Below are positions 1 through 5,971 of a DNA stretch of 64,000 bases, in pieces; the stretch's first letter is position 1; every line of letters begins with the position of its first letter. This DNA comes from Canibacter oris. GTDB taxonomy: Bacteria; Actinomycetota; Actinomycetes; Actinomycetales; Microbacteriaceae. The position numbers and the translations under genes are program-made. The notes beneath the pieces were generated by a model, which worked only from the letters and a program-made list of their open reading frames with translations, did not search any database and was not told the origin of the DNA. The DNA lies in assembly GCF_014197205.1 (NCBI RefSeq), contig NZ_JACIFD010000014.1, positions 1 through 64,000 on the forward strand. Direction: 5' to 3'.

Positions 1-3000
1 AACAGCACCTTTACGCAGCAACTCTTACAACTGATTGCAAACTCAGACGATGCGGTGCTCACCGCTCTCGGGCTACGGAAGCTAACGCAAGAAATTCCCC
101 CTGATTTGCCACGTAAAGACAAAATCGCACTGCGTGCCGGGTCTTTGACCGCGCTCGGGGTGCCGTGGGCAGTACCGCTTGCGGCAAAGCGGTGGTTGCG
201 CGAGCGGGCTACGCATCTGTTGTGCGCCGCAAATCTGCCCAGTGATTCGCCGCGGGGGGCTGATCCACACCTCAGCAATGCCCTGCAAGAACTGCGCACG
301 CAAAACAGTCCGGCGCAGGTTGAGCTGCACGGAGAGAAGGTTTTGGGGCCAGAAGCCAGTCATCGAGAGCTACGGAGACTGCTCGGACTGGCTTATATGC
401 CAGAAGTCGAATATTTACTTGCTGATGTCGGACGGCTAGCACCTGGTGATGCGTGGGCAAGTGAGGCGCGGGCGCAGCGAGCTGTGGCGGCGCTGCGGCA
501 ACTGATTACCGAGGGCGCAGAGCACGGCACTTTTGTGACTATTACCGCATCCACTTACGGTGACAGTCTGCTGGCGGCGACCGTAACCAACAAATTGCTT
601 GCAGATCCTGATGTTTTGCCGCACCAGTTTGGCATTACGCTGTACGCAGAAGTACCTGAGAGCTTTGAGATTTTGACGGCTCTCGCGATTCATGCCAGTG
701 GCCGTAAAGCTGTTGGCGGCGGCAATTTGCAGGTGCGGATCGCGCTGCGCTCGACTGCCTCCCGCGAGTCTATCGATTCGCTGTTGAGCGGGCAGCAGTT
801 TGCGGTGCTAGAAAGCCGTGCTGAAATTGAAGCCGCCGCGATGAAGCTGCTGCTGCAGGCACAGCGAATTGCTGGGGTAACAACAGTTTTTTGCAGCGAT
901 AGCCCGTATGTGGTTGCCGCTGCGCTGGCGCAGCTAGAGCCAGCCGCTACAGTAATTGAGGTGCGCTCCGGAATCTGCCCCGAACTGGTGCTAGCGCTCA
1001 CCGCAACAGGGATTGTAACCCGCGTTACGTTGCCGGTTGTCAGCAAAGATGATTTCCGCGCGATAATGCCACATCTGTTGGCGCTTACGGCGGAGGCTGC
1101 GGACGACAAAAGCGCGGTTGCTCGTAGTCGTATGCTCGAATCGGAATATTTGCCTGCAGAGGAGCTGCGCTACGCCGAACTGCAGCACCTTTACGAGGTC
1201 TGCGAGCGTGCGGCAGAGCCAGCACAGTTGCCGCGGCGGACACAGGATCGGGCGCGGGAGTGGGATCCCAGTGACCGTGACAGCGCACTGTTTTACCGCC
1301 CCGCCGATGATCCCTTTATGCGCGAAACTGGCGGCTTAACGGCCGCGGTTTTAGGGCTTAATAGTGACCCGGACACCGGTGAGATTATTTTGGAGCAGCA
1401 GGTGCTACCGCGCACGGTGCCGGTGGTGTCTGAGAGCGGTTTTGCAGCGGAACCAGGAACTGATGTGACGAGATTCCCCAATCGCCAGTGGTTCCGCGCT
1501 CAAATCTCCGCGGATTTGACGGAGCCGAGTGCGCAGCGAGACGCCACACAAGTTGCAGCGCAATCCGTGACGCAGGACGCGGTGGCAAACCCGACACAAC
1601 CCGAAATGGTGTCGCATGAGAGTGCGAGGGCGCAGACAGACCCGCCTGAGATTGGAACTATTAACACTGTGGTGTTGCAAAACACTCTCACCGCTAGAGC
1701 CCGTGTGCTGCGCCGCATCGCCCTCACCACTGTTGCCGAACGCGATCTTTTTACTCGGCTTTTTGCTGCACACACTGAGCTGTCAGCAAAACAAATTGAT
1801 GCTCAGGTGAACACACTGATTGACACCGCGAGGTATCTGGCGCAGCAGGCAGAAGGTCTGGAGCGGGTACGGGGAGCACGATTCCGGCCGGCTGGTCGTG
1901 TGCTGCTTGCGGGTGACGAAACAGCATTTTTGGTGGATCTGCTCGCCGCTTTCCTTGCCGAATATGCAGCAGGAAACCCTGTCTACTTCGGGCTGCCAGC
2001 GGCGCACATCGAATTTGTCACACGCGTCTTGAGCCAGTGGCAAACCGCAGGTCTGCCACATCAAGCTTTTGAAATTGTGGTTTTCGATGACTTCGTCACA
2101 GAGCCCGCTGCCTACGAAATTGTGCGCGGGGTAACTGTTGGTAGTTTAAGCCTGCGCCGTGCAGTTATGCGTGCAAAACCAGCGCTTGCGGTCAACAGCC
2201 GCAGTTACCAGTTAGGCGTCGCGACAGTCACCCCAAATGCGGACTATCCGGCCGCTGCTGCGGCGATTGTTGAGTCGGCTTTTGGCGGTGATGACGCCGG
2301 GCTACGCCAGGTGCGTGCGGTGTGCGCTGTGGGAAGCGCTTATCGTGCGGAGCGTTTCAGGCAGTTGCTGATTGACGCGGTCCGCAGCATTCCCGCTGGT
2401 GTGACACACACCACGGATCCTTTGCAGCATGCTCTGCCGCCGTTGCCACACCCCCCAACCGCGGCAGAATACGAGGCTCTAACTGCACTGGAACGCGGTG
2501 AAACCTGGCTGTTGCCTCCGCGGCAGCTAGATGATTCCGGCCTGGTGTGGAGCCCCGGCATTAAAGCAGGAATTAGCCCGCACAGTAGCTTCTGGGAGGT
2601 CGCTGCACGATTACCGGTTTTGGGCCTGGTGCATAGCCGCTCTTTGAGCGAGGCTCTAAGCACCGCCAACGAGCTAGGTTCTGGTGCGGTCGCGGCGCTT
2701 TTCAGTTGGGACACCGAAGAGATTATTCCGTGGTTGGATCGGGCTAAAGCCGCGACCCTCACCGTTAATCGCCCAACTTCCGGGGCGCGGGTGGAGCGGC
2801 TGCCCGGAGGTACCTGGAGTGGCGCAAACTCTAGTATTGCTCCGTTGACCGGCGGCCCGCATCAACTGCTAACCCTGGGAACCTGGCAGCTGCGCGAGGG
2901 AACCCCTAGCACTACCTTGCACCTGCGCGGGCTGGAGCCGGAAATTGCGATGTTAATTGAAACTACGCAGGAGTGGTTAGACTACGCTGAGTTCGATCGC

Positions 3001-3558
3001 TTGCGGCGCGCGGCTTTGGCGGACGCGCTCACCTGGCGTACCCAGTTGGGTGTCGCCCGGGATGTTTCTAATCTCGGGGTTGAGCATAACATTCTGCGAT
3101 ACTGGCCGGTTGCGAGTCATATTCGCGTCGCAGAAGACACTCCGATTGAGCAGATTGTACGGGTTTTGAGCGCTGCGTTGCTGGTGCGTGCCCCGATTTC
3201 AGTGTCTACTGGGATGGCGCTACCGGAGCCGGTGGCGCAGTTGCTGCAGCGGCAGGGCGTCGAGGTGACGCTCGAAACCGATGCCACATGGGTAGAGCGT
3301 ATCGCGGTTACCGGCCCGCAGGTCGCAGGAGTTCCAGCAGTGCGTATTCGTCTTATTGGGGCTGATGCTGCAAGCATTGGGGAGTGGGTTGTGGATCGCG
3401 CCTCCGTCGCGATTTGGGCAGAACCGGTAACAATGGCGGGACCCCTAGAGCTGCTTACTTTCTTGAGAGAGCAAGCAGTGTCAATCGCCGCGTGGCGAGA
3501 TGCAATGGTGGCGCGGCAACCGAGATTACTTGACTGGCTGCGCGAAATAGGTCGTTAA
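1..3558 (+). CDS. PutA-like proline dehydrogenase/aldehyde dehydrogenase homolog, 5' partial, catalytically degenerate
   Basis: The frame is open from base 1, so the gene begins upstream of the window; the GTG at 55 is not a true start. The layout follows bifunctional PutA: a PRODH-like part (about the first 400 residues, with LHGEKVLG and VRIALRS where active enzymes have the KVRxVKGAN strand), an ALDH-like part, and a PutA-type C-terminus containing FLREQAVSI. Key residues appear lost. In the segment AFGGDDAGLRQVRA, the position of the ALDH catalytic Cys (GQ/KCSA in the family) is Leu. The general-base Glu position reads Arg, and the PRODH DxEE strand reads TITAS. The family role is proline to glutamate oxidation; I infer a pseudoenzyme or a decaying paralog kept open over at least 1,180 codons. 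Confidence 0.75.
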   Translation, partial: NSTFTQQLLQLIANSDDAVLTALGLRKLTQEIPPDLPRKDKIALRAGSLTALGVPWAVPLAAKRWLRERATHLLCAANLPSDSPRGADPHLSNALQELRTQNSPAQVELHGEKVLGPEASHRELRRLLGLAYMPEVEYLLADVGRLAPGDAWASEARAQRAVAALRQLITEGAEHGTFVTITASTYGDSLLAATVTNKLLADPDVLPHQFGITLYAEVPESFEILTALAIHASGRKAVGGGNLQVRIALRSTASRESIDSLLSGQQFAVLESRAEIEAAAMKLLLQAQRIAGVTTVFCSDSPYVVAAALAQLEPAATVIEVRSGICPELVLALTATGIVTRVTLPVVSKDDFRAIMPHLLALTAEAADDKSAVARSRMLESEYLPAEELRYAELQHLYEVCERAAEPAQLPRRTQDRAREWDPSDRDSALFYRPADDPFMRETGGLTAAVLGLNSDPDTGEIILEQQVLPRTVPVVSESGFAAEPGTDVTRFPNRQWFRAQISADLTEPSAQRDATQVAAQSVTQDAVANPTQPEMVSHESARAQTDPPEIGTINTVVLQNTLTARARVLRRIALTTVAERDLFTRLFAAHTELSAKQIDAQVNTLIDTARYLAQQAEGLERVRGARFRPAGRVLLAGDETAFLVDLLAAFLAEYAAGNPVYFGLPAAHIEFVTRVLSQWQTAGLPHQAFEIVVFDDFVTEPAAYEIVRGVTVGSLSLRRAVMRAKPALAVNSRSYQLGVATVTPNADYPAAAAAIVESAFGGDDAGLRQVRAVCAVGSAYRAERFRQLLIDAVRSIPAGVTHTTDPLQHALPPLPHPPTAAEYEALTALERGETWLLPPRQLDDSGLVWSPGIKAGISPHSSFWEVAARLPVLGLVHSRSLSEALSTANELGSGAVAALFSWDTEEIIPWLDRAKAATLTVNRPTSGARVERLPGGTWSGANSSIAPLTGGPHQLLTLGTWQLREGTPSTTLHLRGLEPEIAMLIETTQEWLDYAEFDRLRRAALADALTWRTQLGVARDVSNLGVEHNILRYWPVASHIRVAEDTPIEQIVRVLSAALLVRAPISVSTGMALPEPVAQLLQRQGVEVTLETDATWVERIAVTGPQVAGVPAVRIRLIGADAASIGEWVVDRASVAIWAEPVTMAGPLELLTFLREQAVSIAAWRDAMVARQPRLLDWLREIGR

Positions 3559-3726
3559 AAGTACGCTTCAATGTGGGACGCTGTGAGTGAGCTTTGTGCA
3601 ATTAATGTAGTTGCTTCGTCCCGGATGTGTTATGTGCATAGCGCAGGTATTTCTGTTGACTCGTTCTTACAATTCTGAAATTTTCTTGAAAACGTCTGAC
3701 GATTGTGAGAAACTATATGAGTATTG

Positions 3727-3745
3727 TGAGGATAACCTTACTTAC
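3727..3745. promoter_or_regulatory. Candidate DtxR/IdeR iron box upstream of the HtaA gene
   Basis: The 19-mer TGAGGATAACCTTACTTAC matches 13 of 19 positions of the DtxR/IdeR consensus. It lies 33 bp upstream of the chosen ATG of a haem-protein gene, where iron repression would be expected. Direct copies of ATTGTGAG precede it at about 3702 and 3724. The site is inferred from sequence and context only. Confidence 0.5.
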
Positions 3746-3778
3746 TTCTGTCTAAAGAAAACCTATTTGAGGAGAGCC

Positions 3779-5971
3779 ATGTCTCACGCTAAGCCAAGCC
3801 GTGCAAAGCGGCTTTTTGGTGCACTGGTGGCTGCGGCTGTTGCTTTTGGTGGTGCGGTGGTAGCGCCAACCCAGGCATTTGCTGCAGAATCAGGCACCGT
3901 TGCGGACGCAACTCTGGATTGGGGTATTAAAGACTCCTTCCGCAGCTACCTGCACGGTCCAATCGCACACGGCCAGTCAACATTGATTGGCGGAGTGACT
4001 ATGGACGACAATATTCGGGATGCGGGTAAAGGCTATCACTGGACCGGTGGTACCGGCACTGCAATGAATGACGGCACCAGCGGAGATGTGCGTTTCTCGG
4101 GTGGTGTGCGGATGGTGGGTCACAATGGCTTGCTCGATATGAGTTTGACTAATCCACGCATTGAAATCACGGGCGCAACCACTGCCAAGATGTATGTTGA
4201 TGTGAGCAGCAAGCGACTGGATAACCCGAACGAGGTTATCCAGGAAGCTGGAATGTACTTCGCTAACCTCACTTTGCCAGCTCCGGTGACATCGGGTGAC
4301 ACTACCTTCACCTATAACGGGGTAACGCTTGCAGTTACCGCCAAGGCAGCTGAAGCTTTCGGTTCTTTCTACCAGGAAGGACAGGTTTTTGAGGGTCTGT
4401 TTAACCTCACCGTGCCAGTGACGGTAGCTGCTCCGGTTCCGGTAGCCACCACCACTGATGTTGTGCTTCGCGCTGAAACTTTCACCACAGCTGATGCAAT
4501 TGGTGCAGCAGCTGGTGTTACCGATGCTAACGGTGTGAAACTCACCGACGAACACGGCACTGTCGAGTTCTTCGTTAACGGCACCTCAGTCGGTCAGGGT
4601 CGCTTTGTTGGGGTTGCCGGGATGTTCGCCCTGAACATTCCTGCGCAGGCTGCTGGCAAGCACAACATCACCGCGAAGTTCACCCCGAAAGACACTAACG
4701 CTTACGCAGCTTCAGAGTCAGCTGCAAAGCAGGTTACCGTTAATGCACCGGGTAACCCGACTGATCCGCCAACTAATCCACCTGCAAACTACACCCCAGT
4801 AGTAAAGGTGTTTAAGGCAGACGGCACCACGGAGCTAGGCGACGAAAAGGTCTACGAGGGCGACACCATTGTTATCAAGGGCACTGGATTCAACACCAAC
4901 AACCCAGGTGGCCGCGGTGCACCCGTGCCTGCTAACCTGCCACAGGGTTACTACTCAGCATTCGGACAGTTCGCTGACGTGTGGCAGCCAAGCAACCCTG
5001 CGAGCACCGGAGAGAGCCGCCCCGCTGAGGCAACTGCGTGGGCGCTCACTGATGCCGCATTCGACGGTGTTCCAGCAATGTTCAAAGACACCGTAGCCAA
5101 GGGTCGCGTGGTGCTGAACGCTGACGGTAGCTTCACCTGGACCTTGCAGCTGCCAGCAATTAAGAAGGGCGTTGAGAACGGCAAAACCGGTATCTATACC
5201 TACTCAGCAGGTGGTCTCAAGGACGCAACTCACGAGGTATTTGTACCGCTGAACTTCGTAGCTGGCGATCGCCCAGCTGAGCCACAGCCACCGGTTGTTA
5301 ACCCAATCGCACCGGTTGTGACTCCAGCTGCTCCGGCAGATGAGTGTGTTGCTTACAGTGCAACCGGCGGTTCATTCAACTGGGGTCTGCGCGAGTCATT
5401 CCGCAACTACGTGCAGGGACGTATCGCTAAGGGTAGCTTCTCAGGTGGTGCCTTCAGCGTATCAGGTGGCGCGTTTAACGCTAAGGATGGCGTTGGGGTT
5501 ATTAACTTCAACGGCGCGATCCACGCAACCGGGCATAAGGGTGTGTTGAACTACAACCTGACCAACCCGAGCATTCAGCTCACCGGCGGTAACTCAGGTG
5601 TTATGTACGCAACCGTTAATGGCACCCGCGTGGCATTCGCTAACCTCACCTTCAGTGGTCTGGTAGCAAACGAGCAGGGAATCACCGCTAACTGGGTATC
5701 AGCCACCCTGACCGCTGCAGGTGCGCAGACCTTCAGCTACAACGGCAGCGCTTTCTACCAGGCTGGCGAGGCGCTGGACGGCTTCTCATTGAACGTTACC
5801 CTCGGCGGTAAGGTTGCTTGTGCAGAGGCTCCTGGCACCGATCCGAAGGAAGCTAAGAAGCTCGCTGCTACCGGTGCAGACGGTGCTCCGCTCGGCGCAG
5901 TTTCACTGCTGCTGCTCGCTGGCGCAGTGGCTGCTGCAGCAGGCCGTCGCTTCCAGAAGCAGGCACGCTAA
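3779..5971 (+). CDS. htaA: Cell-wall HtaA-domain haem-binding protein with LAATG sorting signal
   Basis: The start at 3779 follows a GAGGAG ribosome site and gives a clean signal peptide (cationic N-terminus, hydrophobic core, cleavage near AFA-A, residue 35); the longer frame from 3611 would bury it. The mature protein has two HtaA domains, about residues 45-220 and 525-680, each with a W-x-x-x-x-S-F-R-x-Y motif. Between them are an Ig-like domain (about 225-325) and a further beta-rich domain (about 340-510). The C-terminus is LAATG (residue 695), a hydrophobic helix and a basic tail, as expected for class E sortase substrates. HtaA proteins bind haem at the surface and pass it to a haem importer; no importer lies in this window. 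The upstream iron box suggests iron repression. Confidence 0.88.
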   Translation: MSHAKPSRAKRLFGALVAAAVAFGGAVVAPTQAFAAESGTVADATLDWGIKDSFRSYLHGPIAHGQSTLIGGVTMDDNIRDAGKGYHWTGGTGTAMNDGTSGDVRFSGGVRMVGHNGLLDMSLTNPRIEITGATTAKMYVDVSSKRLDNPNEVIQEAGMYFANLTLPAPVTSGDTTFTYNGVTLAVTAKAAEAFGSFYQEGQVFEGLFNLTVPVTVAAPVPVATTTDVVLRAETFTTADAIGAAAGVTDANGVKLTDEHGTVEFFVNGTSVGQGRFVGVAGMFALNIPAQAAGKHNITAKFTPKDTNAYAASESAAKQVTVNAPGNPTDPPTNPPANYTPVVKVFKADGTTELGDEKVYEGDTIVIKGTGFNTNNPGGRGAPVPANLPQGYYSAFGQFADVWQPSNPASTGESRPAEATAWALTDAAFDGVPAMFKDTVAKGRVVLNADGSFTWTLQLPAIKKGVENGKTGIYTYSAGGLKDATHEVFVPLNFVAGDRPAEPQPPVVNPIAPVVTPAAPADECVAYSATGGSFNWGLRESFRNYVQGRIAKGSFSGGAFSVSGGAFNAKDGVGVINFNGAIHATGHKGVLNYNLTNPSIQLTGGNSGVMYATVNGTRVAFANLTFSGLVANEQGITANWVSATLTAAGAQTFSYNGSAFYQAGEALDGFSLNVTLGGKVACAEAPGTDPKEAKKLAATGADGAPLGAVSLLLLAGAVAAAAGRRFQKQAR

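Follow-up and report, generated by a model that had tools for sequence, protein, structure and literature searches.

A PutA-like protein of Canibacter and Leucobacter without catalytic residues in either half, probably retained for a job other than proline oxidation

The window analysed here is a stretch of 64,000 nucleotides of Canibacter oris, which forms the start of contig C14 in a genome of 24 contigs and 1.65 Mb. It opens with a single open reading frame (ORF) of 1,185 codons for a protein resembling PutA, with a proline dehydrogenase (PRODH) half and an aldehyde dehydrogenase (ALDH) half. The first-pass annotation had described a frame of more than 1,180 codons, which agreed with our reading. 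The frame lacks a 5' start because the contig begins there. The last 906 bases of contig C17 of the same genome are identical to the start of C14 in the opposite orientation, and C17 extends upstream, where an ATG at C17:1041-1039 (minus strand) and the first 45 codons were found. As the overlap lies at the ends of both contigs, it suggested that C17 and C14 carry one gene split by the assembly and not a partial duplication. The complete protein, called pseudo-PutA here, has 1,230 amino acids, and its homologue in C. zhoujuaniae is one frame of 1,219 amino acids. The earlier description of a full-length PutA-like protein without catalytic residues holds for the catalytic loss, which is family-wide, while the protein is incomplete within the window. 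A second, intact putA was found in the genome on contig C4.

The predicted structure (AlphaFold) showed a PRODH barrel followed by an ALDH fold, in the same order as in PutA, and a C-terminal domain after the Δ1-pyrroline-5-carboxylate (P5C) dehydrogenase (P5CDH) part, as in class 3B or type B PutA. We take CfPutA of Corynebacterium freiburgense (PDB 5UX5) to be of this class. It was the best solved match both by sequence (phmmer 1.2e-72; profile 1.4e-152) and by fold (VIA Z 34.7, root-mean-square deviation 6.6 over 699 residues; Foldseek E 8e-47), and it shares the order PRODH, P5CDH and C-terminal domain with pseudo-PutA. PMC5293562 describes the C-terminal domain found in type B PutA. The phmmer match spans both halves and covers the end of the C-terminal domain weakly; the alignment runs to chain residue 995, or to 1067 when a third, weak segment of 7.6 bits is counted. 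Pfam recognised Aldedh only (56 bits, residues 562-935), and Pro_dh (PF01619) had no match in the window protein with E values of up to 1, while some relatives still exceed its cut-off (45.7 bits in genome G480, 47.6 bits in G017). The AlphaFold model had a mean predicted local distance difference test score (pLDDT) of 68 and a predicted template modelling score of 0.41, with unreliable packing of the domains. Eight barrel strands were predicted, and most 10-residue blocks of the barrel had a pLDDT of 80-95, with 52-66 at residues 251-270 and 351-390.

Catalytic positions were read by alignment with the intact PutA of the window genome, in a table of 53 rows comprising the window, G001, G004 and 50 of the 52 family members from the genus to which the named Leucobacter genomes belong. 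Outside this table are G003, whose frame is split, and G470 and G474, which gave partial matches; the probable counterpart of G470, L114, was seen, and the split assemblies G450 and G457 are represented by their main frame. All 53 rows lacked the ALDH Cys and Glu, and all 52 rows with a letter at the PRODH Lys position had another residue there. In the window, the Cys and Glu read Leu and Arg (L768 and R734), as had been noticed in the first-pass annotation, and the alignment with relatives revealed that the loss is common to the whole family. The loss of the PRODH motifs, also claimed there, was confirmed for the Lys, the Asp of LDMEE (T182), the His and the Tyr/Arg/Arg of YLxRR (H358/A361/L362), and failed for one Arg that is considered below. 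A conserved Cys elsewhere in the pocket would have spoken for a living enzyme. No alignment column had Cys in more than 9 of the 53 rows, so a nucleophile relocated within the family was rejected. By its PRODH catalytic and flavin adenine dinucleotide (FAD)-site residues, and by the ALDH Cys and Glu, the protein falls outside PutA, and the family-wide loss of catalytic motifs is what is expected of a pseudoenzyme. Three further members scored apart (G092, G096 and G165) had Pro, His and His at the Cys column and Gln, Arg and Arg at the Glu column. Those of G096 and G165 (L164/L165), from another genus, are fast-evolved, with Ser for Lys, Val for Asp, Arg for Glu and His for Cys, and with a shared branch of about 1.0.

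Table 1. Features of the pseudo-PutA gene in the window (residues numbered from the first codon of the window).
Feature	Position	Strand	Basis or conservation
Pseudo-PutA ORF, C-terminal 1,185 of ~1,230 amino acids	1..3558	+	first 45 codons on C17
PRODH-like (beta-alpha)8 barrel, residues ~90-401	268..1203	+	AlphaFold; VIA Z of about 31-33 with isolated PRODH domains of PutA
Former PRODH Lys (SIK) = D142	424..426	+	Asp in 50/53 rows, one row with a gap
Acidic pair E217 to E220, past barrel strand 4	649..660	+	Glu in 49/52 and 48/52 rows, otherwise Asp
Former His (GHN) = D300	898..900	+	Glu in 45 and Asp in 7 of 53 rows; one gap
R322, end of barrel strand 7	964..966	+	Arg in 52/52 rows with a letter
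Linker, residues 402-500, family motif RTQxRxxEW...RDSALFYR...TGGLTAAVLGL...TGE...SGFAxEPxTD	1204..1500	+	
ALDH-like (P5CDH-like) domain, residues ~501-960	1501..2880	+	Pfam Aldedh 562-935; VIA
Former ALDH catalytic Glu = R734	2200..2202	+	alignment
Former ALDH catalytic Cys = L768	2302..2304	+	alignment
C-terminal domain, same class as in CfPutA 5UX5, residues ~961-1185	2881..3555	+	

The distribution of the family was searched with a profile from 20 relatives, in which L116 was omitted and L108 was truncated at the frame break, and hits of E 1e-250 or better were counted. Pseudo-PutA was found in 52 of the 54 genomes of the genus holding the named Leucobacter, and in all 45 that are near-complete (completeness of 90% or more, contamination of 5% or less). 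Canonical PutA (E 1e-110 or better) was found in 45 of the 54, and in 39 of the 45. The near-complete genomes G440, G140, G458, G460, G480 and G483 lack canonical PutA and keep the dead protein. With regard to INDEPENDENCE from proline oxidation, these six had no other Pro_dh above noise: the Pro_dh search gave no match in three and matched the dead protein itself in the other three, and an additional match in G483 covers 24 positions with 12.8 bits. Five genomes with canonical PutA, searched in parallel, gave strong Pro_dh matches. This search took in seven of the nine genomes without canonical PutA; the other two are G474 and G478 (72 and 76% complete). Among the seven, G469 (92% complete, 7% contaminated) resembled the six in having no other Pro_dh.

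These data bear on the idea that pseudo-PutA is a regulatory or assembly partner of intact PutA, in the manner of a prozyme-like dead paralog. The two proteins co-occur in 45 of the 54 genomes and in the window genome, the C-terminal domain is conserved, and pairs in which one genome lacks canonical PutA are under slightly less constraint. However, the dead protein persists where no PutA or other Pro_dh was found, and its gene is retained more faithfully than that of the supposed partner. An obligate partnership was disfavoured by the six genomes, a role solely as regulator of PutA is unlikely, and we regard the partner explanation in general as improbable, although there may be a minor link to PutA.

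The ratio of nonsynonymous to synonymous substitution rates (dN/dS) among close relatives, a check advised in the first-pass annotation, was estimated by the Nei-Gojobori method in 13 independent pairs, selected by greedy choice at an amino-acid identity of at least 0.78 and a dS of 0.02-1.2. It ranged from 0.034 to 0.177 with a median of 0.109, indicating purifying selection, and the closest pair had about 20 nonsynonymous versus 189 synonymous differences. The regional medians were 0.102 in the PRODH-like barrel, 0.062 in the linker (the lowest), 0.099 in the ALDH-like domain and 0.078 in the C-terminal domain (12 pairs). YN00 gave 0.026-0.106 for the dead protein in five pairs. In seven Leucobacter pairs with both paralogs, which share species and are thus not independent, and of which UT8R-LEU1 has a dS above 1.5, the values were 0.084-0.187 for the dead protein and 0.093-0.176 for canonical PutA. 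The six PutA-less genomes showed a dN/dS of 0.15-0.44 with their nearest relatives. The homology runs over the full length, the frame is conserved in other species, and dN/dS is low, which excludes chance. Taken together, the purifying selection and the retention in six genomes without other Pro_dh support the earlier proposal of a retained function other than proline oxidation.

It might also be argued that the frame is a decaying relic that happens to be still open. All key catalytic sites are lost, the Canibacter members show faster change and partial loss, and frames are split in G003, G450/L115, G457, L116 and at the end of L108. Against this, close pairs show a dN/dS of about 0.1 in all regions and every near-complete genome of the sister genus retains the gene, by which a recent relic was rejected for the family; neutral evolution with broken frames, as expected of a pseudogene, is not the pattern seen in the 13 pairs. 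Moreover, in L. coleopterorum (L115; G450 is likely the same record) the frame of canonical PutA is broken as well, hinting at sequencing errors in this record. We consider decay very improbable. The split frames of G457 (L224) and G450 (L222) lie in single-contig assemblies.

Several observations weigh against a maintained, wholly non-catalytic protein. The Arg of VRxVK, reported as lost in the first-pass annotation, is present in the window (R246) and in 3 of the 53 rows; the last Glu of RRLEE is kept as E365 and in 48 of the 53; and Tyr, the first Arg, Asp and the second Arg survive in 11, 5, 3 and 1 rows, respectively. In wide pairs, the dN/dS of the dead protein was above that of canonical PutA every time, with 0.318 versus 0.195 for celer-ruminantium and 0.381 versus 0.279 for G017-celer, and it was higher as well in four wide pairs with rows of the genus Canibacter. 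Below 75% identity, the family median rises with distance to 0.24-0.41. This rise could reflect dS saturation, a faster long-term change of the dead protein, or both. Pairs with a PutA-less genome were slightly higher in every matched identity bin holding both kinds, for example 0.317 versus 0.282 at 65-70% identity; it suggested that the constraint persists in these genomes and may be a little lower.

The Canibacter branch belongs to the same side of the balance. Between the window and C. zhoujuaniae, the identity is 53% for the dead protein and 74% for canonical PutA, and dN is 0.463 versus 0.209, with dS saturated in both. Among the five Canibacter genomes, G002 is without a copy and G003, an assembly of 130 contigs, has a split frame. 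The constraint in Canibacter thus looks weaker, which may be due to a relaxation of selection or to more rapid adaptation in this lineage, and maintenance by selection, observed for the Leucobacter genus, holds less firmly here.

The tree of 32 rows placed the dead family in one clade (support 100/100), joined at 99/100 by the half-decayed second PutA ('PutA2') of G007, G027 and G022 and the long-branched one of G023. The enclosing PutA2 clade had a support of 100/99 and its other rows are mostly catalytically intact, with all tabled residues in, for example, G031, G005, G006, G011 and G028; the fork to the nearest active PutA2 rows was supported at 92/87. When G092 and G096/G165 were added, the members of four genus-level groups formed one clade (100/100) with a stem of 0.95 changes per column. 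By these trees, the family has a single origin among active PutA paralogs. A PutA2 that still has its catalytic residues in other Microbacteriaceae would be the ancestor, and the residues of both halves would have been lost once, in the common ancestor of the four groups that include Leucobacter and Canibacter. The PutA2 paralogs have parts of the family's linker motif in common. Unlike the dead family, G031 and others keep all tabled catalytic residues, and G027 keeps the ALDH Cys and Glu while its PRODH Lys and Tyr are gone. The Lys and the ALDH Glu are gone in G007, and the Lys, Cys and Glu in G022. These patterns suggest that the PRODH loss may have come first. Further PutA paralogs of the Microbacteriaceae without some or all of the tabled residues were seen at L048:7576-11382 (G020), L059:6311-10300 (G010), L061:1542-5276 (G034) and L054:7021-11169 (G023). 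In a quick tree, those of G020, G010 and G034 stood apart from the family, which indicates that catalytic loss in PutA2 recurs.

What the protein does instead may be suggested by its conserved parts. Linker residues 402-451 are the most conserved 50-residue stretch, with a mean majority residue of 0.82 in 19 family rows, while the same stretch in 22 intact PutAs reached 0.20 and the linker region among intact PutAs is short or variable. In the AlphaFold model, D142, R145, E217, E220, D/E300 and R322 lie at or just past the C-terminal ends of the barrel strands. This strand-end face is the ligand-binding face of such barrels. The barrel mouth and the linker are candidate working parts, and we favour, with some reserve, a maintained pseudoenzyme that keeps both PutA folds and acts by binding, independently of proline oxidation. 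Binding would replace the oxidation of proline or P5C: the remodelled barrel mouth (D142, E217, D/E300, R322) may hold a small ligand, and the new linker and the C-terminal domain may expose the ligand-bound form to a protein partner. The protein would then serve as a sensor or scaffold; a regulator or scaffold, which the first-pass annotation had offered as examples, is plausible. In any case, it probably does some other job than proline oxidation. The structural data do not all fit this picture. From residue 411 on, the linker had a pLDDT of 34-51 per 10-residue block in the full model, and no fold of the linker emerged in a second model of the linker, ALDH-like and C-terminal domains either (26-54). 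The barrel mouth was weakly more conserved than the opposite face (p 0.04) and no more so than the remaining barrel residues (p 0.19), in tests that ignore relatedness.

The main rival of the binding pseudoenzyme is a new catalytic activity. The protein would then be a repurposed enzyme whose new barrel active site, built from D142, E217, D/E300 and R322, performs an unrelated reaction, perhaps on a solute that enters through an adjoining TrpX-type ATP-binding cassette (ABC) importer. The charge-reversed conserved residues on the C-terminal barrel face agree with this, as does the gene neighbourhood. Among 20 loci of the Leucobacter-holding genus, compared by distances between open frames and not between start codons (two stretches are cut by contig ends), 13 have a same-strand ABC_sub_bind or BPD_transp_2 importer part just upstream. 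In C. zhoujuaniae, the gene of the importer ATPase stops 50 bases short of the first start codon in the frame. On the other hand, no cofactor motif was recognised, the conservation of the barrel mouth is marginal, the importer is non-adjacent at 7 of the 20 loci (about 5 kb upstream in G392; cut by the contig end in G480), and it was absent beside the window gene in the 8 kb of C17 that were checked. We regard a repurposed enzyme as unlikely. A broader idea joins elements of both explanations: a new core function across the Leucobacter genus, in which the PRODH barrel, its charges reversed, has gained a new site for a ligand or for catalysis and is read out by the new linker. The gene often lies beside that of an amino-acid-type ABC importer, and the protein would be kept in cells that have lost proline oxidation. 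We put this forward only tentatively.

Compared with known systems, pseudo-PutA differs from CfPutA in lacking the key PRODH and P5CDH catalytic residues and from intact PutAs in its long conserved linker motif. It resembles pseudoenzymes in general, for which we take ALDH16A1 as an ALDH-fold example, in its conserved fold, lost catalytic motifs and retention by selection; what sets it apart is that a single polypeptide contains two distinct enzyme folds, both of them dead. It is a clear example from nature of a large enzyme of two domains with both active sites lost, and the order of loss can be followed since half-decayed and intact relatives are still living. Presumably, similarity-based annotation may label the dead protein a bifunctional proline enzyme, and metabolic models built on such labels would then predict proline oxidation for genomes that have no remaining Pro_dh. 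In a genus rich in named strains, a protein of 1,230 amino acids has been retained with greater fidelity than its active paralog, which points to a function yet to be assigned. No case of a PutA or PRODH pseudoenzyme was found in the literature searched, which was mostly outside subscription journals, and the same literature gave nothing on Leucobacter with proline dehydrogenase or on PutA with Microbacteriaceae and proline. The accessible portion of PMC10211241 likewise holds no PutA case.

Other neighbours recur at the 20 loci, and none is universal. A PEBP-family gene lies upstream at 15, a GntR/FCD regulator on the opposite strand at 11, and an adjoining opposite-strand GNAT gene at 16. 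In the window genome, the gene immediately upstream encodes the regulator. An operator for it, in the interval that separates the divergent regulator from the pseudo-PutA gene, was considered in the palindrome TTGTCTACAA and rejected, as the palindrome has no counterpart in nine other loci; the scan covered the first 260 bases past the regulator, and a loose pattern matched at L100 only. Downstream, positions 3611-5971 (+) of the window encode a protein that carries two HtaA domains and an immunoglobulin-like match below the cut-off, likely a heme-binding surface protein, and EfeU/EfeO genes follow the dead-protein gene in C. zhoujuaniae. A heme or iron link through HtaA or EfeU/EfeO was dropped, since neither belongs to a cluster shared with other loci. 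A TrhO-like gene was seen in the same stretch as PutA2 in G029, G014, G008 and G020, and also at several loci of the dead family.

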